Positions 37,306-49,416 of a stretch of 64,000 bases of DNA are shown here, piece after piece. Under the pieces are notes generated by a model. That model was not told the origin of the DNA. It did not search any database and worked only from the letters and a program-made list of their open reading frames with translations. The position numbers were made by a program, and so were the translations under genes. The number at the start of each line of letters is the position of its first letter. Positions within the stretch are counted from its first letter, which is position 1. Source of the DNA: an uncultured Christensenellaceae bacterium (GTDB lineage Bacteria; Bacillota; Clostridia; Christensenellales; UBA3700); contig CALWHB010000002.1 in the NCBI GenBank assembly GCA_944380275.1, forward strand, positions 1-64,000, written 5' to 3'.

Positions 37306-38365
37306 AAAACTCGAAGGCATGAAGAAAAAGTTTGAAGAACTGACTGAGGAGATTTCCAATCCCGCGGTCATTGCCGATACCGCAAAATGGCAGAAACTCG
37401 TAAAAGAGAGGTCTGCCATGGAAGAACCCGTTGCTCTTTACGAAACATATACGGCAAACGAGGCAACGATTTCCGAGTGTCGTGAAATTATCGACGACGG
37501 CTCTGACAAAGAGATGGTGGCTCTTGCAAAAGAAGAGCTGTCAGTCGCGCTTAAAAAAAGAGATGAAATCTCAGAAGAGCTGAAAATCGCACTTCTGCCC
37601 AAAGACCCTGACGACGACAAAAACGTAATCATAGAGATACGCGCGGGAGCTGGCGGCGACGAGGCAGGTTTGTTCGGCGCAGAACTCGTCAGGATGTACG
37701 AACGTTTTGCAGAGCGTTGCCGTTGGAAGGTAAAGGAAGTCGATATAAACGCAAACGACCTGGGCGGCATAAAAGAGGCGGTATTCATGATTAGCGGACA
37801 CGGCGCATACAGCAGACTGAAGTTCGAAAGCGGCGTGCATCGCGTGCAGAGAGTGCCTGAAACAGAATCTCAGGGCAGGATACACACTTCCACCGTTACC
37901 GTGGCGGTTTTGCCCGAGGCGGAAGACGTAGAAGTGGAGATACTTGAAAAAGACCTCAAGATAGACGCCTACCGCGCCGGCGGAGCGGGCGGACAGTACG
38001 TAAACAAGACAGAGTCCGCGATAAGAATCACACATCTGCCCACGGGCATAGTGGTTACCTGCCAGGACGAAAAATCGCAGGGCAAGAACAAAGAAAGCGC
38101 GATGAAAGTGCTGAAATCCAGGGTGTACGACTATTACCGCCGTCAGCAGGAAAAGGAGTACGCCTCCAGCAGAAAGATGCTGGTGGGGACGGGCGACCGC
38201 TCTGAGCGTATACGCACGTACAATTTTCCGCAGGGAAGAGTTACCGACCACAGGATAGGGCTTACGCTTTATTCTCTCGATTCCTTCCTGGACGGAGATT
38301 TGTTTGAAATGCTCGACGCTCTCGCGCTTGCAAGCAGAAACGAATTGCTGTCGTCGGAACAATAA
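37298..38365 (+). CDS. prfA: Peptide chain release factor 1
   Basis: Recognises UAA and UAG and triggers peptide release. The 355-residue protein contains the anticodon-like tripeptide PET at 187-189 (RF1-type P-x-T) and the catalytic GGQ at 231-233 within [16 protein letters not shown]. The start is GTG at 37298, inside the prmC end, matching the family N-terminus; the ATG at residue 8 is less likely. Confidence 0.97.
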
Positions 38366-38424
38366 TACGATACGGCATCTTACATTGATACTATTTTATT
38401 CAGACCGGAATAGAGGAGAAAGAC

Positions 38425-39816
38425 ATGATTAAGTACAACAAAGACAAGAACTTGTTGATTGAAAGCAACTGGCGACCCTTCCTTCAGGACGTAGAGCAGC
38501 CCAACCTTTTCCGCGACCTTTTCGATTACGATACCGTTCCCAAAGTCGCGTTCAACTTCAGACAGACTCCTATGGATATGCCTGAAGAAATATGGATTAC
38601 CGATACCACGTTCCGCGACGGACAGCAGTCCACCTCCCCCTTTACGGTAGAGCAGATAGTCAATATTTACAAACTTCTGCACAAACTTGGAGGAAAGAAA
38701 GGGCTGGTAAGACAAAGCGAGTTTTTCCTGTATTCCGAAAAGGACAGGGCGGCTGTCAGAAAGTGTATGGAACTGGGTTACGATTTCCCCGAAGTTACCA
38801 GCTGGATACGCGCCAACGAAAAGGACTTTGAACTCGTCAAGGAGATGGGCATCAAAGAAACGGGTATTCTCGTAAGCTGTTCTGACTATCACATCTTCAA
38901 GAAGATGAATATGACGCGCAAGCAGGCGGCTGAAAAGTACCTCAACATCGTCAAGATGGCACTTGACAAGGGCATAGTTCCCCGTTGCCATTTCGAGGAC
39001 ATCACGAGGGCTGACTTTTACGGATTTGTCGCGCCGTTCGCTTACGAACTGATGAAACTGCGCAAGGAAAGCGGTGTGGATATTAAGATAAGAGCGTGCG
39101 ATACGCTCGGATACGGTCTTTCTTATCCCGGCGTAACTCTTCCCCGCAGCGTACCCGGCATAATCAGCGGTCTAAAATATTATGCGGAAGTACCCAGCGA
39201 ACTTCTCGAGTGGCACGGACACAACGACTTCTACAAGGTCGTTACCAATGCGACCACCGCATGGCTGTACGGCTGTTCTTCTGTCAACTGCTCTCTGCTG
39301 GGCATAGGAGAGAGAACAGGCAACTGTCCTCTCGAGGCGATGATGATAGAATACGCGTCGCTCAAAGGCACGGACGATGGTATAGATTTCAGAGCGATTA
39401 CAGAAATCGCAAAGTATTTCGAGGACGAACTGGGATACATAATTCCTCCCCAGACGCCGTTTGTAGGCAAGTCCTTCAACACGACGAGAGCGGGCGTACA
39501 CGCGGACGGACTGCTCAAGGACGAGGAGATATACAACATATTCAATACCGAAAAACTGCTGGGCAAGCCTCCGCTCGTATCGGTAGACGCTCACAGCGGC
39601 CTTGCGGGCATAGCTTACTGGATGAACGGTTTTTATTCTTTGCCCGAAGGACATAAGGTGGACAAGCGCGACGACATCGTAGTCAAGGTTAAAGAGGTCA
39701 TCGACAAACAGTATGAGGGCGGCAGAACCACGTATATGGGCGACGACGAACTGGATGCGATAATCACTTTGCTTGCACCCGAACTGCATAAGAAACTTGT
39801 CATAAAGACTTATTGA
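38425..39816 (+). CDS. DRE-TIM acyl-CoA ligase-condensing enzyme, Re-citrate synthase/isopropylmalate synthase-like
   Basis: A 463-residue enzyme of the family that condenses acetyl-CoA with a 2-oxo acid. The metal/active-site motif TDTTFRDGQQS is near 55-65, CHFEDITRAD near 190, and HGHND near 275. It has a ~50-residue N-terminal extension (NWRPFLQDVEQPNLFRDLFDYD) and no leucine-regulatory C-terminal domain. These features fit the clostridial Re-citrate synthase group better than LeuA. If so, it makes citrate from oxaloacetate for glutamate synthesis in an incomplete TCA cycle. The ribosome site GAGGAG precedes the ATG. I give no gene symbol because isopropylmalate or homocitrate synthase activity is not excluded. 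Confidence 0.8.
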   Translation: MIKYNKDKNLLIESNWRPFLQDVEQPNLFRDLFDYDTVPKVAFNFRQTPMDMPEEIWITDTTFRDGQQSTSPFTVEQIVNIYKLLHKLGGKKGLVRQSEFFLYSEKDRAAVRKCMELGYDFPEVTSWIRANEKDFELVKEMGIKETGILVSCSDYHIFKKMNMTRKQAAEKYLNIVKMALDKGIVPRCHFEDITRADFYGFVAPFAYELMKLRKESGVDIKIRACDTLGYGLSYPGVTLPRSVPGIISGLKYYAEVPSELLEWHGHNDFYKVVTNATTAWLYGCSSVNCSLLGIGERTGNCPLEAMMIEYASLKGTDDGIDFRAITEIAKYFEDELGYIIPPQTPFVGKSFNTTRAGVHADGLLKDEEIYNIFNTEKLLGKPPLVSVDAHSGLAGIAYWMNGFYSLPEGHKVDKRDDIVVKVKEVIDKQYEGGRTTYMGDDELDAIITLLAPELHKKLVIKTY

Positions 39817-39907
39817 CGACGGTTTGGGTATATTTTTCGTAAAAGCTATTGAAATCCGATTTAGTTTAGTCTAAAATATAAGTATAAACTTAATCGGAGG
39901 GCAAAAC

Positions 39908-40321
39908 ATGGTAAATCTGATTTGCGGAAGCAAAGGCTCCGGCAAGACCAGCCGAATTATCGAAAAGGCGAACGCGGACGTAAAAACCGCGAAAGGCGAC
40001 TGCATCTTCATCAACGATACCGACAGGTATATGTACGACGTCGACCGCGGCGTAAGGCTGATTGACGTAACGGAATATCCCGTTGCAGGAGAAGAGGCAT
40101 TGCTCGCGTTCATATGCGGTCTTGCTGCAAGCAGAAACGATTTGACAAACCTTTACATAGACGGTGCGTCGAGAATCGCAGGATGCGGACCGGAAAAGAT
40201 GAAGAAATTTTACGAAGAGCTGGGCAAACTTGCGGATAAACTCTCTTTGTCCGTAACGGTTACAGTCAGCGCGACCGCAGAAGAATTACCTGATTTCTTA
40301 TTGAAATACAAAATTATCTGA
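39908..40321 (+). CDS. Small P-loop ATP-binding protein, unknown function
   Basis: A 137-residue protein with Walker A GSKGSGKT at 7-14 and a Walker B-like LYIDGAS near 80-86. It looks like a minimal RecA/kinase-like nucleotide-binding domain, but I do not recognise the family. GGAGG precedes the ATG at good distance. It lies 9 bases before thrC and is likely co-transcribed with it, although no threonine role is known. Conserved-looking open frame with a real ribosome site, so I regard it as genuine. Confidence 0.8.
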   Translation: MVNLICGSKGSGKTSRIIEKANADVKTAKGDCIFINDTDRYMYDVDRGVRLIDVTEYPVAGEEALLAFICGLAASRNDLTNLYIDGASRIAGCGPEKMKKFYEELGKLADKLSLSVTVTVSATAEELPDFLLKYKII

Positions 40322-40330
40322 GGAAATAAA

Positions 40331-41827
40331 ATGAATTATATCAGCACTCGCAATAAGAGCGAGAAGTGTAGCGGCGCAGAGGCGATTGTCAACGGACTCG
40401 CGCCCGACGGAGGACTTTATGTCCCCGAAAGCCTGCCGAGGCTAACCAAAGAAGATTTTATAAATCTGGCGAAAGAGGACTATCCGTCGAGAGCGGCGCG
40501 CGTCCTCTCGCTTTTGCTGAGCGACTATACTTACGAAGAATTGTTGGATTACACGACAAAGGCATATTCCCGTTTTTACGGCGACGACCCGTGTCCTTTG
40601 GTCAATATAGACGAAGGCGTTTATGTGCTTGAACTGTGGCACGGTCCCACCTGCGCGTTTAAAGATATGGCTCTGACCATGCTGCCGCACCTTCTCAGCG
40701 CGGCACGCAAAAAGGTTGGCGAAAAGGACAAGACCCTTATTATGGTAGCGACTTCGGGCGATACGGGCAAAGCCGCGCTTGAAGGATTCAAAGACGTTGA
40801 AGGTACAAACATCATCGTGTTCTATCCGTCAAAGGGCGTATCCGATATGCAGAAACTGCAGATGAAGACTCAGACGGGCGACAACGTATGCGTATGCGCT
40901 ATTGAGGGCAACTTCGACGATACTCAGAACGCAGTCAAGAACATCTTTGCGGATAAGAAGATTAACGAAGAAATTCATGCCGGAGGGTTCAAACTCTCTT
41001 CTGCAAACTCTATCAACTGGGGCAGACTCGCTCCTCAGATAGCGTATTATGTTTCTGCGTATTGCGACCTTCTTGACGAAGGCAGGATAGAGTACGGCGA
41101 CAAAGTCAATTTCTGCGTTCCCAGCGGCAACTTCGGCAACATACTCGCGGCATATTATGCTATGAAAATGGGCGTGGGCGTAAACAGACTTATCTGCGCG
41201 TCCAACGTCAACCACGTGCTGACAGACTTTTTCAGAACGGGAGTTTACGACATAAACAGAGATTTCCACAAGACGATTTCTCCTTCTATGGATATTCTCA
41301 TTTCTTCAAATCTGGAGAGATTGCTGTTTGAAATAAGCGGCAGGGACGACAAGCTTACGGCAGAGCGCATGAAGGCTTTGAAGACAGAGGGCAAATACAG
41401 CGTTTCGGCAAAAGAATTAGAGGCGTTGCAGTCGCTGTTCTCCGTGGGATATGCCGACGACGAAGAAACCAAAGAAACCATAGCTTATTCTATGGACGAG
41501 TACGGTTATCTGATGGATACGCATACCGCGGTGGCTTACGGCGTCTACTGCGATTATGTTGACGAGAGCGCGGACGAAACCCCGACGGTAGTCGTTTCTA
41601 CCGCCAACGCGTACAAGTTCCCCGCAGACGTATACGAGGCTGTTAGCGGCAACAGAGTGGACGACGCGTTCGAGGCGACTGAAAAGCTCTGCGAAGAAAC
41701 GGGAGAAGAAGTTCCCGAACCTCTCAAAGGACTCAAAGAGCGTCCCGTACGATTCGAAGAGGTAATCGACAGGAGCAGAATCGCAGACAAAGTAGTGGAG
41801 TATTGCAGACAGGCGTCTAACAGATAA
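40331..41827 (+). CDS. thrC: Threonine synthase
   Basis: Converts O-phosphohomoserine to threonine using pyridoxal phosphate. The 498-residue protein has the typical start YISTRNKSEKCSGAEAIVNGLAPDGGLYVP and the PLP lysine K111 in TCAFKDMAL, followed by ATSGDTGKAA. Its length fits the long bacterial form. The ribosome site GAGGAA is 6 bases upstream. hom is 34 kb away in this window, and homoserine kinase (thrB) is not seen here. Confidence 0.96.
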   Translation: MNYISTRNKSEKCSGAEAIVNGLAPDGGLYVPESLPRLTKEDFINLAKEDYPSRAARVLSLLLSDYTYEELLDYTTKAYSRFYGDDPCPLVNIDEGVYVLELWHGPTCAFKDMALTMLPHLLSAARKKVGEKDKTLIMVATSGDTGKAALEGFKDVEGTNIIVFYPSKGVSDMQKLQMKTQTGDNVCVCAIEGNFDDTQNAVKNIFADKKINEEIHAGGFKLSSANSINWGRLAPQIAYYVSAYCDLLDEGRIEYGDKVNFCVPSGNFGNILAAYYAMKMGVGVNRLICASNVNHVLTDFFRTGVYDINRDFHKTISPSMDILISSNLERLLFEISGRDDKLTAERMKALKTEGKYSVSAKELEALQSLFSVGYADDEETKETIAYSMDEYGYLMDTHTAVAYGVYCDYVDESADETPTVVVSTANAYKFPADVYEAVSGNRVDDAFEATEKLCEETGEEVPEPLKGLKERPVRFEEVIDRSRIADKVVEYCRQASNR

Positions 41828-41890
41828 TCCGCGCTTTAAAGTAAACAAACGCAATCCGCGCGTTTTTAAAATACTGCAGATAAATTGCAT

Positions 41891-41928
41891 AAAAATACGA
41901 CCCCTTTAAAACGGGGTCGTATTTTTTG
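41891..41928. terminator. Bidirectional terminator, thrC and flavodiiron gene
   Basis: Stem ATACGACCCC/GGGGTCGTAT with loop TTTAAAAC and T-runs on both strands. Confidence 0.92.
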
Positions 41929-41989
41929 TTGTGGTGATTTATAAAAAGATTAAGTCGAAAGATAACAGCGCAATCTAATCCGGCAGAGA

Positions 41990-43189
41990 TTACTTGAGCG
42001 CGCCGGCAAGCTGTCTGCCGTATTCTTTTGCGGATTCTATGTCAGCCGCCGTGGGTACGAAACAGACTTTGAGCCCTTCGCCGACCACAGCCATTTTAAG
42101 TCCTGAAACTCTCGCTATAACATTGGGGACAGCCTCGCCGCTCCAGCCGTAAGAACCGAAGACAGCGACCGGCTTTTTGCGGCTGTTTATCGCGTCCACG
42201 CCGGCGAGCAAATCCCATACGGGCGGAACTGCGTCAGAATTGAGGGTGGGAGAGCCTATCGCGCACGCGTCGCAAGAATTGATTTTTGCGCGCATTTCAG
42301 ACATATCGTTCTCGATGAGGTTGTAAGTTTCGCAAGCCGCGTCGGGGATTACTTCCTTTACGCCTTCGGCGATAGCCTCAGCGAGTTTTGCCGTGCAGCC
42401 GTATGCAGAGCAGTAGAACACTGGGATTGTCTTTACCGCGTTCTTGACAGGCTTGCTCCAGTTTTTGTAGCAGTCGAGTACGTACGGCAGCAGTCCGTTC
42501 TTTGTCAGTACGGGACCGTGGCTGGGGCATACGGTTTCAAACGGATATTTTGCAATCTTTGCGGTGCCGGCGATTACGAAGGGCTTGAAAGGACCGAAAA
42601 TGGCGTCGTAATAACCCTTGAAAGCCTCTTTGTATCCGTCGACGTTTTCCACATCCTTGTCAAAGACCTTCTCGCTGCTGTAATGAGAACCGAATACGTC
42701 GCAGCTGAAAAGCACCTTTTCTTCAGCGCAGTACGTGAACATACTGTCAGGCCAGTGCAGCAGCGGTGCGACGGTAAACGTAAGCGTTACGCCGCCAAGG
42801 TCGAGAACTTCGCCGTCCTTTACGGGGCGGGATTTAAAGGGTTCGTTTACGATGTTTTTCAGGTAGTTGAGCGCGACCGCCGTTGCGAGAACGGTAGCGT
42901 CTGGACACAGCCTGAGCAGGTCTGCGAGTGCGCCTGAGTGGTCGGGCTCTGTATGATTCAGCACGATGTATTTTATTTTTGCAGGGTCGGCAACTTCGCG
43001 TATGTTCGCCTCGTATTCGCCCTTGAAATCAGCGTGCGATGCCTCAATCAGAGCAACGTCGTCGCCTTTTACGATATAAGAGTTATAGCTGGTACCGTAT
43101 TTTGTTTCCATCACTATATCGAAAACTCTGAGGTCGGGATTCTGCACTCCGACGCTGTAAATTTTGTCAGTAATTCTGTTTGCTGCCAT
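41990..43189 (-). CDS. Flavodiiron protein (O2/NO reductase)
   Basis: A 399-residue cytoplasmic enzyme reducing O2 to water and/or NO to N2O, protecting anaerobes. The N-terminal metallo-beta-lactamase-like domain carries the diiron motif HTEPDHSG with H79, E81, D83 and H84; later ligands are visible around LHWPDSM, CDVFGSH and PSHGP. The C-terminal flavodoxin domain starts near 250 (VFYCSAYGCTAKLAEAIAEGV). The start at 43189 follows GGAGGAG; the longer open frame has no such site. It lies 40 bases after the small NrdD-like gene and is very likely co-transcribed with it under the palindrome at 43578-43595. Confidence 0.95.
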   Translation of the reverse strand: MAANRITDKIYSVGVQNPDLRVFDIVMETKYGTSYNSYIVKGDDVALIEASHADFKGEYEANIREVADPAKIKYIVLNHTEPDHSGALADLLRLCPDATVLATAVALNYLKNIVNEPFKSRPVKDGEVLDLGGVTLTFTVAPLLHWPDSMFTYCAEEKVLFSCDVFGSHYSSEKVFDKDVENVDGYKEAFKGYYDAIFGPFKPFVIAGTAKIAKYPFETVCPSHGPVLTKNGLLPYVLDCYKNWSKPVKNAVKTIPVFYCSAYGCTAKLAEAIAEGVKEVIPDAACETYNLIENDMSEMRAKINSCDACAIGSPTLNSDAVPPVWDLLAGVDAINSRKKPVAVFGSYGWSGEAVPNVIARVSGLKMAVVGEGLKVCFVPTAADIESAKEYGRQLAGALK

Positions 43190-43229
43190 ATTGAAATCTC
43201 CTCCGTAAATTGCAGAATATTGTAGATTG

Positions 43230-43496
43230 TTAAATTCCGTGTTTAACTCTGTCCCTTTCTTCGGCGCGTTTAGCATTGTTGAAACGGTCGAGGGTACCAA
43301 CAAGATAACCCGTTATGCGGCGTATCCTTTCAAAAGGTACGTTTTCAAAAGTATATTTGAGGTCGACGTAGTCGCCGTCTACAGTAACGTCCATCTGAGA
43401 AATGTTTTTATCGGGGTATTTCTTTTTACCGTAATCGATATAAGCGTCGATTTCTTTCTGTTCAAGCTGACCGCCGTTTACGTTTACTTTTATCAT
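43230..43496 (-). CDS. Small protein resembling the C-terminal (glycyl-radical) end of anaerobic ribonucleotide reductase
   Basis: An 88-residue protein with no cysteine. The first ~50 residues are a beta-rich, charged region (VNVNGGQLEQKEIDAYIDYGKKKYP). The C-terminal segment FERIRRITGYLVG, then LDRFNNAKRAEERDRVKHG, resembles NrdD tails, where RxxGYL holds the radical glycine (Gly64 here). The zinc Cys pairs of NrdD are missing. It could be a spare radical domain, as GrcA/YfiD is for pyruvate formate-lyase, or a regulatory relic. This is inference from remembered family patterns. The start at 43496 follows GGAGG; the TTG six codons earlier contains that ribosome site and is excluded. First gene of the flavodiiron operon. 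Confidence 0.7.
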   Translation of the reverse strand: MIKVNVNGGQLEQKEIDAYIDYGKKKYPDKNISQMDVTVDGDYVDLKYTFENVPFERIRRITGYLVGTLDRFNNAKRAEERDRVKHGI

Positions 43497-43550
43497 AATT
43501 TTATCCTCCGGCAAATATTTTTAAAATTCGCTTTACTTTTTATCGCATAT

Positions 43551-43556
43551 AATATA
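43551..43556 (-). promoter_or_regulatory. Probable -10 element of the NrdD-like/flavodiiron operon
   Basis: TATATT on the minus strand. No good -35 is found; the palindrome at 43578-43595 would centre near -42 from the predicted start, the class II activator position. Neighbouring overlapping hexamers shift this by up to 3 bases. Confidence 0.45.
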
Positions 43557-43577
43557 ACATATTTTCAGAAGAAATAT

Positions 43578-43595
43578 ATGTTGCAAATGCAACAT
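43578..43595. promoter_or_regulatory. Crp/Fnr-type operator palindrome
   Basis: ATGTTGCA-AA-TGCAACAT, perfect 8-base arms around 2 bases, lies between the divergent regulator gene and the NrdD-like/flavodiiron operon. Shape and place fit a Crp/Fnr-family dimer site. It falls inside the regulator gene's own leader, so it could also give autorepression. Confidence 0.75.
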
Positions 43596-43608
43596 TTTGA
43601 GGAAAATT

Positions 43609-44256
43609 ATGGATATTTTTAAAATAAATCTTTTTGACGGGATAAGCGGCGAGGACGTAGAGAGGATGATAGTATGTTTCGGCGCGGTTTTCAGAAGTTT
43701 CAAGACAGGTGCGACTATATACGACTATCCGGGCAGCGGCGACGACGTTGGAGTAATGCTTGAAGGTAAGGCGTCGATGATACGTACGGACGAAGACGGA
43801 GAGGTCGCGGTTATGGAACTTTATTCAGAGGGCGACATATTCGGAGAGGTGCTTGCTTTTGCCAACGAAACGGGCGACAGCGTCAAAGTTATTGCAGAGA
43901 GCGATTGCAACGTTATGTTCATCAAGTATTCGCAGATAACAAAACGCTGTGAAAGAGCATGCGAGCATCACAGCAGGCTTGTAGGGAATATGTTCGGGCT
44001 GATAGCGAGAAAGACGCTTTTGCTGAGCAGAAGAATAGAGATATTGTCAAAAAAGACCACAAGAGAAAAGCTGATGTATTATTTTCAGACGCTTTCAAAG
44101 GATTACGGCGCGGAGTTTGAACTGCCTATGTCGGTAACACGACTTGCTGAATACGTATGCGCTGACAGGAGCGCGATGACGAGAGAACTGTCGCGTATGC
44201 AGTCGGACGGACTCATTGAGATAAACAAGAGAAGAGTAAAGCTCAAAAAGGCATAA
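43609..44256 (+). CDS. Crp/Fnr family transcription regulator
   Basis: A 215-residue regulator: N-terminal cyclic-nucleotide-binding-like beta roll (about 10-125), a dimer helix near 125-150, and a C-terminal Crp-type helix-turn-helix (MSVTRLAEYVCADRSAMTRELSRMQSDGLIEINKRRVKL, about 175-213). The N-terminal Cys cluster of FNR is absent, so an oxygen-sensing Fe-S cluster of that kind is not expected; heme/NO or another ligand is possible. The start at 43609 follows GAGGAA. The divergent promoter with a palindrome ties it to the flavodiiron operon. Relatives of this type control nitrosative-stress genes in anaerobes (HcpR-like), but I cannot assign the subfamily. Confidence 0.9.
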   Translation: MDIFKINLFDGISGEDVERMIVCFGAVFRSFKTGATIYDYPGSGDDVGVMLEGKASMIRTDEDGEVAVMELYSEGDIFGEVLAFANETGDSVKVIAESDCNVMFIKYSQITKRCERACEHHSRLVGNMFGLIARKTLLLSRRIEILSKKTTREKLMYYFQTLSKDYGAEFELPMSVTRLAEYVCADRSAMTRELSRMQSDGLIEINKRRVKLKKA

Positions 44257-44404
44257 AAATTTTTGCAGCGCATTAACTTTACAGGTTGATTGCGATAGAC
44301 CGTAAGGGACAAACGTGATTTTGAGAAGACAGTTTTATTTTTTCAATTTGAAGACATGTTTTTGAAAATACGGCAAAATCTGAGGAATATCGAATAATTT
44401 AATC

Positions 44405-44437
44405 AAAAAAGACGCGCCCTGACACGCGTCTTTTTGA
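44405..44437. terminator. Bidirectional terminator, regulator and protease genes
   Basis: Stem AAAAAGACGCG/CGCGTCTTTTT with loop CCCTGACA. Confidence 0.9.
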
Positions 44438-44516
44438 TTTGATATTTGATTGCCTGAATTTTATCTGACTTTCCGCTCTTTATGCCTTTATGCGGTAAAA
44501 TTTTGAAAACGGATTG

Positions 44517-45842
44517 TCAGACTGCTGAAAAGCTGTCTTTTTCAGCCGTAACGCTCACGCTCATTGCCTCGCCGTTTCTGGTGAAGTTTATAGTGATTGT
44601 ATCTCCCTCTTTTGCCTTGAGCAGGTATTCGCGCGCTCTGAAAGAAGTATCCACCTTGACGCCTTCTTCGCCGTTTATTGAAACTGATACCAGAACGTCG
44701 CCTTGTTGCAACAAGCCTTCGACAGCCGCTCCCGTGCTTATTTCGCCTACCGCATACGTGTATACGGTACGTATAATGCCGTCGGAATCAATGTAAGTCG
44801 TCATATCTGAGAGTTCCATAGTGATGCCAAGGCTGAAACGCTGACCGTTGTTTTCGATTATATTGTCAGCAACCGCTACCGCAAGACTTGCAGGGATTGC
44901 GTAACAGATGTTGTCGTCAGTCGTATCTGCTGATTTTGCGTCGGAAATGCCCATAAGTTCGCCGTATTCGTTGAACATACCGCCGCCGGAGTTACCGCTG
45001 TTGAGAGCGGCGTCCGTGCGGTAAACGCGTACGTTGGACGAGGAGTCGGTAGTGATGTATTCAGACTCGACAGAAACTATGCCAGACGTTACCGAGAAGG
45101 TGTAAAGCGTGGGGCAGCCTACCGCAAAAGTCGCCTGACCTGCGACGGGGTCTGAAGTATTTACTTTTACGGTTGCGACCGTGTCTTCGAGGAAGAAATC
45201 CGAAGAGGCTTTTATTACCGCAATATCGTTGCTTTCCGACGCGCCCACGACGGTTGCGCTAATCATATCGTCTTCCATAACCCTGTTGTAAAGATAAATT
45301 TTTATATTGCTGCAATATTCGCTCTTGTAGGTGTCGTATATCACGTGATAATTTGTTATTATATATGCGGTATTTCCGCTGAGCTTATAAATTACGCCTG
45401 AACCCGACCACGCATGCTGACTCTGACCGAAGGGGGTAGTGTAAGGACTTGTGCATATAATACCGACCGCGCTTTTCAGGGCTTGCTGTACGGTTGAGGT
45501 TATGCTTGGGGTAACGTCAAGACCGAGCGACGCGTAAAAGTCTGCCTCTGTAGCTCCCGGATTGCTTTCGAGATATTTAGCAATAAGTTCGTCGAGAGAG
45601 AAAGCGTCTTTTCCGTCAGTACCGTTAGTTCCGTCGACGCCGTCTTTGCCGTTGGTGCCGTCTGAACCTTTAAGGCTTTCGAGCCACTCGCTTTCCGTAC
45701 CTTCAAAGCCGTTTCTGACAGCGATTTCATAAGCCGACTCGCCCTTTGTTTCAGAACCTATGCAAGAGCATAGCAAAACCGCGGTAAACACGGTTATAAC
45801 AATTGCCACAATCGCGGTGAGGATGATTTTTTTTGATTTCAT
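44517..45842 (-). CDS. Exported trypsin-like (HtrA/DegP-type) serine protease with collagen-like stalk
   Basis: A 441-residue protein. The signal helix (about 5-23) ends in LCSC, a possible lipobox at Cys27. Residues 37-58 (AYEIAVRNGFEGTESEWLESLKG) precede seven Gly-x-y triplets at 59-79, a short collagen-like stalk. The protease domain has H166 in TNYHV, D206 in SNDIAV and S285 in NSGNSGGGMF, an intact triad. A PDZ domain follows (about 340-435, with GAAVEGLLQQGDVLVSV). It likely degrades or refolds proteins on the cell surface. GGAGG precedes the ATG. Single gene. Confidence 0.92.
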   Translation of the reverse strand: MKSKKIILTAIVAIVITVFTAVLLCSCIGSETKGESAYEIAVRNGFEGTESEWLESLKGSDGTNGKDGVDGTNGTDGKDAFSLDELIAKYLESNPGATEADFYASLGLDVTPSITSTVQQALKSAVGIICTSPYTTPFGQSQHAWSGSGVIYKLSGNTAYIITNYHVIYDTYKSEYCSNIKIYLYNRVMEDDMISATVVGASESNDIAVIKASSDFFLEDTVATVKVNTSDPVAGQATFAVGCPTLYTFSVTSGIVSVESEYITTDSSSNVRVYRTDAALNSGNSGGGMFNEYGELMGISDAKSADTTDDNICYAIPASLAVAVADNIIENNGQRFSLGITMELSDMTTYIDSDGIIRTVYTYAVGEISTGAAVEGLLQQGDVLVSVSINGEEGVKVDTSFRAREYLLKAKEGDTITINFTRNGEAMSVSVTAEKDSFSAV

Positions 45843-46000
45843 ATACGCCTCCGTTATTTTTCGTAAAAAGTATATGTCTTATCTATGAAACGAATCTTAA
45901 AAATCGCAATAATTTTAGCATAATAATACACGGTTTAGCAATAAAACGTGTGTCAGACGGCTTAATTTTTCGTGTTTCAGAATTTATAGTTATATTATTA

Positions 46001-46030
46001 TTGACATAATGTATATTTATGTATTATGAT
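46001..46030 (+). promoter_or_regulatory. Probable rtcB promoter
   Basis: TTGACA (46001-46006), then TATGAT (46025-46030) after 18 bases. Other AT-rich hexamers follow, so the exact -10 is uncertain. Confidence 0.6.
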
Positions 46031-46058
46031 TTATAATATACCGATTAAAGAATATAAT

Positions 46059-46081
46059 AAAACCGGATTTTCCCGGTTTTT
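46059..46081 (+). promoter_or_regulatory. Terminator-like hairpin in the rtcB leader
   Basis: Stem AAAACCGG/CCGGTTTT with loop ATTTTC and one further T. It lies after the probable promoter and before the gene, so it may attenuate transcription, or it may simply be a weak insulator. Confidence 0.45.
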
Positions 46082-46155
46082 AGGTGAGGGCTTTGAGCTG
46101 CATTGCAGGTGATTAAGCCGCTGAAAATGTGAAGAAAGGGAGCGGATATAGTTAT

Positions 46156-47331
46156 ATGATAGAGTTTGACAACGTGAAGATATTTACAGACAGAATTGAA
46201 GAATCCGCTCTTGCTCAGTTGCACACCCTTTGCGACAGCGGCATTTTTGACGGTCAGCCCATAAGGATTATGCCCGACGTGCATACGGGTGCAGGTTGTG
46301 TCATAGGTTTTACAGTTCCTCTCAAAGATAAAGTCGTCCCCAACCTTGTAGGAGTAGATATATCCTGCGGCATGCTGTGCGTTCCTGTCGGGAAGAGGAA
46401 GGTGGATTTTTCCGCCGTGGACGAGGTGATAAAAAGACGCATACCGTCCGGCAGAGATACCGGCGCGTATTCTGAAGAGGCGAGAGATATTTTTCAAAAC
46501 CTGCGTTGTCGTGATTTTATCGGAAATAAGGAAAGAATAGAGATGTCGATAGGCACTCTGGGCGGAGGAAATCACTTTATTGAAATAGATACCGATGAGG
46601 ACGGATTTTATTATCTTGTAGTCCACAGCGGGTCGCGTAATCTGGGAGTGCAGGTAGCTGAATATTATCAGAAAAGAGCGTGCGCGGAGCGTAAGAAAAA
46701 GGCGGCTGAAAGACTTGTATCGCAGTACAGGGCAGCGGGCAGAGAAAGGGAAATAAACGCCGCGATAGCGCAGCTTGCGAAAAACGACAGATTGCCTAAA
46801 GAACTCAATTATCTTGAGGACGAATCCATGCAGGATTATCTTTTCGACTCTGCTTTATGCGGAAAATACGCGGACCTGAACAGAAAGAAGATGGCGGAAA
46901 TCATAATTGAGGAGTGTTTTCCCGGTGTAAGAATAGAGGACGGTTTCACAACTCTTCACAATTGTATAGGAGAGGACGGGTATATAAGGAAAGGCGCGAT
47001 AAGCGCGAAAAAAGGACAAAGAGTGCTGATACCTCTCAATATGCGCGACGGATGCATTATGGGCACGGGTAAAGGAAATGCAGACTGGAACTTTTCTGCT
47101 CCTCACGGCGCAGGCAGAATTATGTCGCGCGCGGCGGCGAAAGAGAATATAAAGCTTGACGAATACATAGCGTCGATGAAAGGAGTGTATTCTTCAACGG
47201 TGACAGAAGATACAATCGACGAATCGCCTTTTGCATACAAACCGTCGGACGAGATTACAAAACTGATAAAAGATACCGTAGATATTGAAAAAAGAATATA
47301 CAGCGTATACAATTTCAAGGCGGCAGAATAA
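46156..47331 (+). CDS. rtcB: RtcB-type RNA-splicing ligase
   Basis: A GTP- and Mn-dependent ligase joining 2',3'-cyclic-phosphate or 3'-phosphate RNA ends to 5'-OH ends. The 391-residue protein shows metal-site motifs MPDVHTGAGCVIGFT, VGVDISCGM and GGGNHFIE, and the guanylylation region APHGAGRIMSR. It is of the shorter RtcB type. The start at 46156 follows AAAGGGAG at a somewhat long distance; GTG 46129 has no site. No archease or RtcR regulator is nearby, so its role (repair after ribotoxin attack or tRNA/mRNA end healing) is open. Confidence 0.93.
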   Translation: MIEFDNVKIFTDRIEESALAQLHTLCDSGIFDGQPIRIMPDVHTGAGCVIGFTVPLKDKVVPNLVGVDISCGMLCVPVGKRKVDFSAVDEVIKRRIPSGRDTGAYSEEARDIFQNLRCRDFIGNKERIEMSIGTLGGGNHFIEIDTDEDGFYYLVVHSGSRNLGVQVAEYYQKRACAERKKKAAERLVSQYRAAGREREINAAIAQLAKNDRLPKELNYLEDESMQDYLFDSALCGKYADLNRKKMAEIIIEECFPGVRIEDGFTTLHNCIGEDGYIRKGAISAKKGQRVLIPLNMRDGCIMGTGKGNADWNFSAPHGAGRIMSRAAAKENIKLDEYIASMKGVYSSTVTEDTIDESPFAYKPSDEITKLIKDTVDIEKRIYSVYNFKAAE

Positions 47332-47637
47332 TAACTTTCAGGAGAAACAGAGCTGATTTTGCAGAGAAGGAAAGGCTGAGAAGTTTTCTGCGAAAATGTG
47401 AATTATGCCGAAAAACGGACAAAATGCGGGAGTGACTGTGCAGATTTATACTAAGAAACGTGCCGTATTTGTCGTCGCAAAAGCGCGCGTCTGACATTTG
47501 AGCGCGGCTTGCAAAAAAGAGGTTTTTTTTAATTGCCAAATATCGCAATGTTTGATATAATATTAACAATTGCGAAGTGCAGTCAAACGCGCTTTGCAAA
47601 TCAATATTTGAAATATATTTTATAAGGAGAATCATAT
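47332..47637. other. 306-base intergenic stretch before pckG
   Basis: Holds the pckG promoter at 47533-47561 and a 70-base leader. No terminator is evident after rtcB, and no gene or known RNA is seen. Confidence 0.55.
47533..47561 (+). promoter_or_regulatory. pckG promoter
   Basis: TTGCCA (47533-47538), a 17-base spacer and TATAAT (47556-47561). The predicted leader is about 70 bases. Confidence 0.85.
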
Positions 47638-49416
47638 ATGACAGATTTGACTTCTAATAAGCAAGTACTGGCTTTCGTAGAAGAAACTCAGAAACGCTGC
47701 CAACCCGACAATATCGTCTGGATTGACGGTTCTCAGGAACTTTACGACAAGCTGACTGCTGAGGCAATCGCTACCGGCGAGATGATTAAGCTCAACGAGG
47801 AACTGCTCCCCGGATGCTTGCTCCACCGCACCAAAGAAAACGACGTTGCCCGCGTTGAGAACAGAACATTTATCTGCTCCCGTACCAAAGAAGACTGCGG
47901 TCCTACCAATAACTGGTGGAAACCCGAAGAGGCTTATGCAACCCTTTACGGTATTCTTGACGGCGCGTACAAGGGCAGAACGATGTACGTTATCCCGTTC
48001 TCCATGGGTCCTGTAGGCGGCGCGCTCTCCAAAATCGGTATTGAAATCACCGACAGCATTTACGTCGTTCTCAACATGAGAATCATGACCCGCGTAGGCA
48101 AAGACGTACTCAAGGCTCTCGGCGACAGCAACGACTTCGTAAGAGGTACGCATGCTAAATGCGACGTTGACCCTGAAAAGAGATATATCTGCCAGTTCCC
48201 TGAAGACAACGCGATTATTTCGGTAAACAGCGCGTACGGCGGCAACGTTCTTCTGGGCAAGAAGTGTTTCGCTCTTCGTATCGCGTCCTATCAGGGCAAG
48301 AACGAGAACTGGATGGCAGAGCATATGCTCATCCTCGGTATCGAAAAACCCAACAAAGAAACCGTATATATGGCGGCTGCTTTCCCGTCCGCATGCGGCA
48401 AGACCAACCTGGCAATGCTTATTCCGCCTGAGGGTTACCGCAAGAACGGTTACAAAGTATTCTGCGTAGGCGACGACATCGCATGGATTAGAAAGGGCAA
48501 GGACGGCAGACTTTACGCTATCAACCCTGAGAACGGATTCTTCGGCGTTGCTCCCGGTACCAACCAGAAATCCAACCCCAACGCTCTTGCTGCTACCAGA
48601 AAGAACACAATATTCACCAACGTTTGCCACAATCTGGAGAACAACACGGTATGGTGGGAAGGACTCGACAAGAATCCGCCCGAACATGCTATCGACTGGA
48701 AAGGCAATCCCTGGAACGGCAAGACTTCCACAGAGAAGGGCGCACACCCCAACAGCAGATTTACCGCTCCCGCGGTCAACTGCCCCTGCATCAGCCCTGA
48801 GTTCGAGAACGGCAACGGCGTTCCGCTCAGCGCGTTCATCTTCGGCGGCAGACGTGCTAAGACGGCTCCGCTCGTATACCAGGCAAAAGACTGGGAGAAC
48901 GGTGTATTCGTCGGCTCTATCATGGCAAGCGAAACCACCGCTGCGGCAGCAGGCGCGGTAGGCGTTGTAAGACGCGACCCGATGGCTATGCTCCCGTTCT
49001 GCGGTTACAACATGGGCGACTACTGGCAGCACTGGCTCGACATGGGCAAGAGCGTAGACGCAGACAAACAGCCCAAGTTCTTCAACGTAAACTGGTTCAG
49101 AACAGATGACGAAGGTCATTTCATCTGGCCGGGATTCGGTGACAATATGAGAGTCCTCGACTGGATGCTCAAGAGAATCGCCGGAGAGGTTGAGGCAGAA
49201 GAAACCGCTATCGGTTATGTTCCTAAGGCTGAAGACATCAACATCGAAGGCCTCGATATGAGCGTCGACACCGTCAAGGGTCTTCTCGCTATCGACAAAG
49301 AGAACTGGAAGAAAGAAGTCGAAGGCATCAAAGAGTTCTATGCTAAGTTTGGCGACAAGCTCCCCAAAGAGCTGGCTAAGCAGGCTGAAGAGCTGGAAAA
49401 CAAACTCAACAAGTAA
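47638..49416 (+). CDS. pckG: Phosphoenolpyruvate carboxykinase (GTP)
   Basis: Interconverts oxaloacetate and PEP with GTP/GDP. In anaerobes it often fixes CO2 toward oxaloacetate or runs gluconeogenesis. The 592-residue protein has the PEPCK substrate loop and kinase P-loop FPSACGKTNLAML, the metal-binding GDDIAW, and the GTP-form stretch GRRAKTAPLVYQA, and it matches GTP-PEPCK length. AAGGAG precedes the ATG. Codon use is strongly biased (GTT, CTC, AAC, TCC), indicating an abundant enzyme. Oxaloacetate produced here could feed the citrate-synthase-like enzyme at 38.4 kb. Confidence 0.97.
   Translation: MTDLTSNKQVLAFVEETQKRCQPDNIVWIDGSQELYDKLTAEAIATGEMIKLNEELLPGCLLHRTKENDVARVENRTFICSRTKEDCGPTNNWWKPEEAYATLYGILDGAYKGRTMYVIPFSMGPVGGALSKIGIEITDSIYVVLNMRIMTRVGKDVLKALGDSNDFVRGTHAKCDVDPEKRYICQFPEDNAIISVNSAYGGNVLLGKKCFALRIASYQGKNENWMAEHMLILGIEKPNKETVYMAAAFPSACGKTNLAMLIPPEGYRKNGYKVFCVGDDIAWIRKGKDGRLYAINPENGFFGVAPGTNQKSNPNALAATRKNTIFTNVCHNLENNTVWWEGLDKNPPEHAIDWKGNPWNGKTSTEKGAHPNSRFTAPAVNCPCISPEFENGNGVPLSAFIFGGRRAKTAPLVYQAKDWENGVFVGSIMASETTAAAAGAVGVVRRDPMAMLPFCGYNMGDYWQHWLDMGKSVDADKQPKFFNVNWFRTDDEGHFIWPGFGDNMRVLDWMLKRIAGEVEAEETAIGYVPKAEDINIEGLDMSVDTVKGLLAIDKENWKKEVEGIKEFYAKFGDKLPKELAKQAEELENKLNK

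Follow-up and report, generated by a model that had tools for sequence, protein, structure and literature searches.

A stand-alone NrdD-type glycyl-radical domain in a Crp/Fnr divergon, a probable spare part for class III ribonucleotide reductase

Oxygen (O2) cleaves glycyl radical enzymes at the glycine, as stated in general terms in the accessible part of a 2015 review of ribonucleotide reductases (RNRs; PMC4390871) and, for the class III reductase, in that of a review on Fusobacterium (PMC12288474). The closest described systems are YfiD (GrcA), from E. coli, and the phage T4 protein Y06I, which replace the end of pyruvate formate-lyase (PFL) that O2 has cut off (PMC8683613). That paper, as far as its accessible text goes, gives only YfiD and Y06I as validated and regards spare parts for other glycyl radical enzymes as possible. 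Strict anaerobes that rely on class III RNR should lose DNA-precursor synthesis when O2 cuts the radical. Here we describe a locus at positions 41,990 to 44,256 of a 64,000-nucleotide stretch of DNA (the window; contig CALWHB010000002.1, assembly GCA_944380275.1) from an uncultured Christensenellaceae bacterium, in which a small gene encodes an 88-aa protein that ends in the glycyl-radical segment of the class III reductase NrdD.

We propose that this protein is a spare glycyl-radical part for class III RNR, acting on NrdD as YfiD/GrcA acts on PFL, and we put the probability of this reading at about 0.75. We also consider it reasonably probable, with somewhat less confidence, that in many anaerobic Bacillota the radical end of class III RNR is a modular peptide of 50-100 aa that receives its radical from NrdG and can be exchanged into NrdD. 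By lineage it would be an oxygen-repair kit controlled by a redox regulator, an obligatory subunit, or phage-borne (sometimes with nrdG) so as to drive or rescue the enzyme of the host.

The glycyl-radical segment of the small protein

The small gene lies at 43230..43496 on the minus strand, and the frame, start and N-terminal domain of its cysteine-free product are kept in family members. The Pfam NRDD profile matches residues 55-86 with an E-value of 2.1e-7 over profile positions 533-562, which are its last 30, and the end of P. copri NrdD (PDB 8p23) matches at E 3.3e-5. Residues 52-88 are 95% identical to a same-genome NrdD, and the segment itself, FERIRRITGYLVGTLDRFNNAKRAEERDRVKH (residues 55-86; 43239..43334, minus strand), equals the end of the genome's own NrdD on contig 46. 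The likeness is based on these sequence-profile and sequence-sequence matches. RITGY, the glycyl-radical segment of class III RNR, is present. Taking chain 8p23_A as numbered +4 (743 versus 739 residues), we found that Gly63 (codon 43308..43310, minus strand) aligns with Gly711, the radical glycine of P. copri NrdD according to the accessible text of PMC11226230 (eLife 89292). The original prediction, made from the letters of the window, had called the protein NrdD-tail-like. The profile match bears out the kinship, and the label understates it, because the segment includes the radical glycine, of which it is seemingly the sole source in a number of related genomes.

Since the protein has no cysteine it has no zinc site and no catalytic cysteines, and a barrel is absent as well. 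Like GrcA/YfiD it is short, stands alone and carries a glycyl-radical site together with the strand that precedes it (FERIRRI followed by TGY). The PFL-type Gly_radical domain of that family (GrcA/YfiD, IPR011140) had no Pfam match in the small protein, where only NRDD and a chance match to Pinin were returned at E<=1. The N-terminal domain (residues 1-55; 43332..43496, minus strand) is predicted by AlphaFold2 to be beta-alpha-beta-beta and matches no known family, with no Pfam match and no significant structural relative in a Foldseek search (best E 0.21). A likeness to HPF/YfiA, at E 0.2 or worse, was not used. Block mean pLDDT was 80-87 over residues 1-50 and 71.4 for the whole protein, with a pTM of 0.47.

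The window's genome encodes two NrdDs, both complete by profile. The NrdD of contig 46 has NrdG downstream, and its Cys452 corresponds to Cys416 of P. copri NrdD. From FER to KHG this NrdD and the small protein are identical at 33/33 residues, and the underlying DNA is identical at 77/99 nucleotides. Because the 22 base differences bring no residue change, the copy is old and its protein sequence is held by selection. This indicates that the glycine segment of the small protein is under strong purifying selection. Partial gene duplications are common, and the small gene could for that reason be a functionless relic of a duplicated nrdD end; residues kept identical across 22 silent differences argue against such a relic, as does its occurrence across many families and in several settings, and we give this explanation almost no credence. 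The second own NrdD (contig 16, 791 aa; L486, 468-2843, plus strand) has a different end, which the small protein does not match. By eye, it carries a glutaredoxin-like C-terminal extension.

Stand-alone tails, NrdDs that lack the glycine, and phage copies

We found two types of stand-alone tail. Type 1 proteins, mostly 85-110 aa, carry the N-terminal domain of the window protein, while type 2 peptides of about 45-60 aa consist of the glycine segment with a short leader. A DNA pattern for the type 1 junction matched at least 119 stretches, and all 119 listed encode a stand-alone protein. Their frames are 86-147 aa long, apart from one of 331 aa (L224) whose start is likely internal, and the records include Ruminococcus albus 8, Ruminococcus sp. 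FMBCY1, Sporobacter termitidis DSM 10068 and Anaerotignum sp. MSJ-24. Three of the 13 matches of a phylum scan (G460, G375, G398) were rejected as chance matches in long frames. Glycine conservation is built into the junction patterns used for scanning, so that a search with the N-terminal domain is the free test; there the glycine was kept in 21/21 full-length family members. Separately, two 45-aa frames in one genome (G104:C5:31024-31152 and G104:C9:3763-3891) align with the final 41 positions of the NrdD profile. These are possible stand-alone tails of another kind of NrdD, and the window protein did not find them.

Six proteins of one family, f107 (L109, L111, L114, L115, L067, L068), from six genomes of the phylum scan, have the N-terminal domain and end at most about 20 residues past FERIRRI or a variant of it, with the glycine loop absent. 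Given these, the N-terminal domain could be the working part, as a regulator or a nucleotide or RNA binder, and the tail would only tether it to NrdD or NrdG. The weak resemblance of the domain to ribosome-hibernation factor folds (best E 0.21) points the same way. Against this, the short type has the glycine segment with no such domain, and the glycine segment is the best conserved part, in part through the construction of the scans. We regard a working N-terminal domain with a mere tether as very improbable.

A type 2 gene comes immediately after an nrdD of a particular kind; the encoded NrdD retains the zinc-finger CPxC before running into an unrelated tail, for example VSxEKLxELRKxYPNVP. 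At seven of eight loci looked at with a glycine-less nrdD and a type 2 gene, nrdG comes next. In one family (120 genomes, 53 with a match) the 30 loci listed comprise 18 with a glycine-less NrdD plus the peptide, 11 with an intact NrdD and one of type 1. The same pairing occurs elsewhere (L040, L047, G118 and Subdoligranulum variabile, L484), and at L110 a glycine-less nrdD has a type-1-like partner.

For type 1 carriers we surveyed 58 of the at least 119 matches (8 + 50) for NrdD, which was present in all 58. Of these, 13 have an NrdD that ends immediately ahead of the glycine or close to it (for example FERIHRITE, CERIPRIKV, HERIKRINCNC or HERIRRITCSC), retaining ERI.RI or similar. In R. albus 8 one of two NrdDs is truncated in this way, and the small gene is sited elsewhere. 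The truncated NrdD is the only one found in nine of the 13 genomes, and in eight of those nine PF02867, the profile for class I/II RNR, was unmatched; the ninth, Ca. Cryptoclostridium, has a PF02867 match. Altogether PF02867 was not found in 28 of 36 genomes with a split or truncated NrdD. Genomes with no match include G771, a single contig that is 99% complete, and G118, G207, G228 and G246, which are 99-100% complete; four of the 36 are less than 80% complete. The same search was positive in 11/14 control genomes, and it found no class I/II reductase in 45/45 genomes of the window's family, the window's own (about 90% complete) included.

Both catalytic cysteines are kept in 19/19 aligned split or truncated NrdDs, which are for that reason unlike dead enzymes. 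Wherever a glycine-less NrdD is the only one found and the search for class I/II reductases gave no match, the radical should be provided in trans by the small protein. As read from these sequences, if the glycine-less NrdDs work, the glycyl radical must come from a separate protein.

A quick tree of NrdD cores (95 rows, radical segment excluded, duplicate cores removed) requires 12 changes between intact and glycine-less forms, and starred branches force four or more of these; its inner support is modest, with 37/92 inner branches open. A stand-alone protein that supplies the glycine would predict that glycine-less NrdDs are absent from genomes without it. A class-wide search with PF13597 covered 291 genomes, of which 253 had a match, and its rows are the matches listed. 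Among these, two NrdDs stop at 531-539, both in carriers (G118 and G250, the latter ending in ...HFERIPRL). We re-searched 80 further genomes of the class sample for NrdD ends, some 35 others, known carriers among them, being excluded. In G265, the sole carrier among the 80, an NrdD runs to position 539; no NrdD with its end within profile positions 525-545 occurs in any of the 79 non-carriers. In two other re-searched genomes NrdDs end at contig edges.

Where type 1 carriers have an intact NrdD, the two tails can be compared. The sample comprised 40 of 43 genome pairs with an intact NrdD and type 1, the other three having no small tail that passed the filter; G820 and other genomes are outside it. 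Over 32-residue tails we found 28.93 identical positions within genomes versus 26.37 between genomes, and 0/10000 permutations reached as high a value. This suggests that the stand-alone segment tends to track the sequence of its host's own NrdD. The tails of NrdD and small protein differ at only 2/96 bases in G229, and at 7 in G094, where the genes adjoin, so that recent copying is likely in these two genomes.

Tail genes also occur on viral contigs. In IMG/VR the type 1 pattern matched 25 stretches and the type 2 pattern 111, and 130 of these 136 tails (25/25 and 105/111) stand alone, in open reading frames (ORFs) of at most 160 aa. NrdD is absent from the stretch, as distinct from the whole contig, in 125 of the 130. 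Near-copies are counted in these figures, as are a few ORFs that are incomplete or disrupted at the end (L302, L380, L411, L418), and for most contigs the viral status is the assignment of the database. One tail-peptide contig has terminase, portal and minor head genes (L342) and another has primase, helicase and polymerase genes (L390). At L355 and L390 nrdG adjoins the peptide and NrdD is absent from the stretch. In genome G282 two tail peptides lie in stretches that are prophage-like by eye (L042, L044), and both recur in IMG/VR (L367; L411, cut).

MT838827 (L146) and MT837046 were not counted as proof of phage carriage. Both are unannotated, and MT838827.1, labelled Bacteriophage sp., looks bacterial: metK is a neighbour, and over the 99 residues shared with Ruminococcus sp. 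FMBCY1 the small protein differs from the one there at a single residue. In Eggerthella phage EL753P1 (L147, 6964-7172) the phage nrdD ends with no glycine segment, and the segment follows further down; the frame shifts between FERIRRI and TGYLTG in the record, where the segment is annotated only as a hypothetical protein. A plasmid record from C. difficile, about 10 kb long (NZ_CP033215.1, L485), has an nrdD, which gave the tail match, and nrdG.

These findings bear on a further explanation, in which the free tail is a decoy or brake that shuts the reductase down under stress by competing for either NrdG or the barrel of NrdD. The window's NrdD is intact, so a free tail could compete with it, and the gene sits in a stress-type divergon. 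In the eight genomes with only a glycine-less NrdD and no class I/II RNR found, on the other hand, the free tail must be productive, and nrdG plus peptide with no NrdD in the stretch, as in the phage stretches L355 and L390, would be odd for an inhibitor of an enzyme that the phage needs. A brake is quite improbable in our view.

The Crp/Fnr divergon and its partner genes

Downstream of the small gene, with 40 bases between stop and start codons, a flavodiiron protein (FDP) of 399 aa, an O2/NO reductase, is encoded at 41990..43189 on the minus strand, as seen from its ORF and Pfam matches. It has both the diiron and the flavodoxin domain of flavodiiron proteins above the curated cut-offs (ODP 74.8 bits, cut-off 27.2; Flavodoxin_1 45.2 bits, cut-off 25), and by eye the metal ligands HxExDH / H / D / H can be recognised. 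Pfam found no rubredoxin domain in its 399 aa. The best NCBIfam model is anaerobic nitric oxide (NO) reductase flavorubredoxin at 296 bits, and the two NorV flavorubredoxin models scored 249.4 and 296 bits, below their cut-offs of 711 and 635.

Divergent from the small gene is a Crp/Fnr-family regulator of 215 aa (43609..44256, plus strand), with cNMP_binding and HTH_Crp_2 both above Pfam cut-offs. The length is counted from ATG; the listed 219-aa ORF begins at an upstream TTG. Between the two genes lies an 18-bp operator-like palindrome, ATGTTGCA-AA-TGCAACAT (43578..43595, core GTTGC-N4-GCAAC), which is the single match in the window and has no mismatches; 0.27 matches with up to three mismatches are expected there. 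It is also the sole site of its own genome with fewer than two mismatches. With up to two mismatches the genome has 10 sites versus 21 for a reversed control pattern, and we rejected the palindrome as a genome-wide regulon motif. Near-matches rarer than the control argue for a local operator, with no sign of a wider regulon. The palindrome ends 13 bases ahead of the regulator's start codon, a spacing that suggests autoregulation through it.

A predicted -10 hexamer of the operon of small protein and FDP lies at 43552..43557 (minus strand) within the extended -10 TGTTATATT, and an extended -10 of this kind is present in 16/16 divergon loci of two genera. The palindrome core is likewise found between regulator and small gene in 16/16 loci of these genera, and its centre lies at -42.5 (11 loci, all those of the window's genus) or -41.5 (5 loci) from the start predicted via this conserved extended -10. 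About -41.5/-42.5 is the class II activator position for Crp/Fnr proteins. The operator of the small gene is therefore predicted to be of the activator type, at about the class II position. Just past the predicted promoter, the leader of the small gene contains AAGTAAAGC (43531-43539, minus strand) in 16/16 divergon loci of the two genera, and a similar sequence occurs in L037, L156 and L161.

Within the window's family the small protein is carried by 18/46 genomes, namely 11/13 of the window's genus, 5/6 of a second, 2/3 of a third and 0/24 of the remaining three. The order Crp/Fnr, small gene, flavodiiron is present in 11/11 carriers of the window's genus. For the second genus, 5/5 carriers keep the regulator and the small gene, and flavodiiron is directly downstream in 0/5. 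Regulator, palindrome and tail gene occur together in 16/18 family loci (the window and 17 others), the exceptions being the two loci of the third genus, where regulator and flavodiiron gene were both not found. In that genus (L106 4667-6157, L107) the small gene is flanked by feoAB plus an iron-dependent repressor on one side and a copper ATPase on the other, feoAB and the ATPase being recognised by eye.

The arrangement extends further. Two of 14 type 1 loci read in a distant family have it, palindrome included (L156, L161). At L037 the palindrome precedes a rubredoxin-FDP gene, and the small gene lies about 0.7 kb further with no palindrome of its own. A divergent Crp/Fnr gene is next to the small gene in 13 among the 119 matches listed, 12 found by script and one (L224) whose start had been placed too far upstream, and flavodiiron is in the stretch in at least four of the 119, some stretches ending at the gene. 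In four Ruminococcus loci the gene immediately after the small gene, in the same orientation, encodes rubrerythrin (one confirmed with Pfam), and in a fifth rubrerythrin lies within 1.5 kb. A scavenger of O2/NO or of peroxide is thus encoded after the tail gene in some of the lineages. FDP linkage, being confined to genus level, was dropped as a defining feature; flavodiiron is one partner among several and Crp/Fnr the commoner one.

The divergon that the original prediction had described, with Crp/Fnr gene, one perfect palindrome, 88-aa gene, 40-base gap and flavodiiron gene, was confirmed in every element. The linkage on which it leaned held for regulator, palindrome and tail gene in the 16/18 family loci and proved narrow for flavodiiron (11/11, then 0/5). 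Its core idea of a response that removes the oxidant and protects or repairs the class III radical is supported, in that the comparative evidence points there.

Among 27 aligned regulators Cys23, Cys114 and Cys118 are conserved in 25, His121 in 26 and Cys100 in 23, and the sequences that depart most from this set are two distant same-strand relatives. That the regulator is a redox or Fe-S sensor can fairly be guessed. In FNR an N-terminal cysteine cluster binds [4Fe-4S]; Cys23/100/114/118 and His121 seem not to fit the canonical FNR pattern and make up another conserved Cys/His set. HcpR and FNR-type regulators share with it the Crp/Fnr fold and the divergence from a redox-defence gene. The common HcpR2 motif GTAACnnnnGTTAC (accessible text of PMC1274295) is absent at the operator, which is GTTGC-N4-GCAAC; variant HcpR2 motifs are outside this comparison. 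According to the same text some HcpR2 proteins with Ser at position 181 use other motifs, and the window regulator has, by eye, Ser at that position, so that kinship with HcpR is possible. We dropped HcpR as a name because the common operator and the cysteines differ, though the HcpR2 variants leave room. By eye no hcp gene was recognised among the window ORFs of 38000-48500, where no dedicated hcp search was made.

Other neighbours were noted. In the window's genus a gene for a trypsin-like protease/lipoprotein with collagen-like GTNGKDG repeats, by eye, adjoins the divergon (44517-45842), and in one member (L095 7515-10172) a CRISPR-like repeat array and a Cas2-like gene, also by eye, lie downstream of the flavodiiron gene. 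Models of defence systems gave no match. Eight of the 119 matches listed (L187, L214, L216, L228, L259, L269, L270, L279) have metK no more than 1.5 kb away from the type 1 gene, the position having been read in seven; its product S-adenosylmethionine (SAM) is the co-substrate of NrdG, and the proximity may reflect shared ancestry.

Proposed mechanism and comparison with known systems

In the proposed mechanism O2 or NO-derived species would cut or kill NrdD at the glycyl radical, and the regulator, probably through its conserved Cys/His set, would switch the operon on. The flavodiiron protein would clear the oxidant, after which the radical part would be renewed. The extended tail of the small protein would thread into the barrel of the damaged NrdD with its segment FERIRRITGYLVGT and replace the lost end, that is the FERIRRI strand and the glycine loop. 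NrdG could then re-install the radical on Gly63, and synthesis of deoxynucleoside triphosphates (dNTPs) would resume with no need to remake an enzyme of about 780 aa. The N-terminal domain might serve for docking or as a safety element. Sister lineages would have come to depend on this part as the exchangeable radical subunit that a split enzyme cannot do without, and phages carry copies of their own. The steps from docking onward are those we infer, and the signal sensed, the radical on Gly63 and the rescue of damaged NrdD are likewise proposals. The expected product of an O2 cut, an NrdD that keeps FERIRRIT and loses the rest, resembles several of the truncated NrdDs encoded in genomes.

Alternatively, the tail might always be an exchangeable radical subunit in normal anaerobic growth, damage or not, with the divergon only adjusting its dose. 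Obligate split enzymes seem to exist, and only one monomer per dimer of P. copri NrdD has an ordered glycyl-radical domain, which leaves room for a part in trans (eLife 89292, accessible text). Such a subunit would be needless where NrdD is intact, and the Crp/Fnr and FDP or rubrerythrin partners point to oxidant stress. We consider constant exchange unlikely, and favour a part held for repair at the window's locus.

Several observations weigh against a spare radical part. Both NrdDs of the window's genome are complete, which means that the part is not obligatory there, and its use in repair is presumed. The tail has a pLDDT of about 50 and is predicted to be disordered when alone. PF02867 is present in eight of the 36 genomes with a split or truncated NrdD, and G793 also has an intact NrdD. 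Most of the genomes are metagenome assemblies, in which a missing second NrdD or class I/II RNR may be an assembly gap. A non-carrier, G166, has a full NrdD and a second NrdD-like frame ending at 504. Compared with the nearest other genome (mean 27.88), the own NrdD was nearer in 20 of the 40 pairs, equal in 14 and farther in six, and among the 25 close-neighbour pairs the gain was small (29.08 for own versus 28.72); the co-variation of the tails is in part shared ancestry. Lastly, 106 of the 119 matches listed have no divergent Crp/Fnr gene and 115 no flavodiiron gene in the stretch, so the stress role cannot be generalised across carriers.

A replaceable radical part, if true, would explain recovery and extend the spare-part idea from PFL to an essential enzyme. 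It would also show that two separate pieces can make up a working glycyl radical enzyme of a much-studied kind, and phages of anaerobes would gain a plausible small tool for taking over the host's dNTP supply. Whether other glycyl radical enzymes have spare parts, a question raised in the accessible text of PMC8683613, can now be addressed in named strains.

In the literature searched, mostly outside subscription papers, no stand-alone class III glycyl-radical domain and no nrdD split at that place was described in the accessible text. Two-piece reductases are known, as the split class II NrdJa/NrdJb and as phage nrdD genes split by introns, inteins or otherwise (PMC9669993, PMC3653736). These belong to another class or are interruptions by mobile elements, and none described in the parts seen makes the glycyl-radical segment a gene of its own, the split point of phiAS4 being outside the comparison. 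With class III NrdD (PF13597; P. copri 8p23) the window protein shares residues 55-86 with the radical glycine, and differs in having no barrel, catalytic cysteines or zinc site.

The closest likeness is to YfiD/GrcA and Y06I, which are also small stand-alone copies of a radical C-terminus including the strand before the glycine, and which also exist in a phage version. The viral tail copies mirror T4 Y06I, the phage-borne spare part of PFL (PMC8683613, accessible text). Unlike YfiD, the window protein copies NrdD and not PFL, and its parent enzyme no longer has the segment itself in several lineages. YfiD has a disordered N-terminus and a PFL-shaped C-terminus, whereas the window protein is predicted to have a folded N-terminal domain and a disordered tail. 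In some lineages, again unlike YfiD, the tail gene is placed under a Crp/Fnr divergon with FDP or rubrerythrin.

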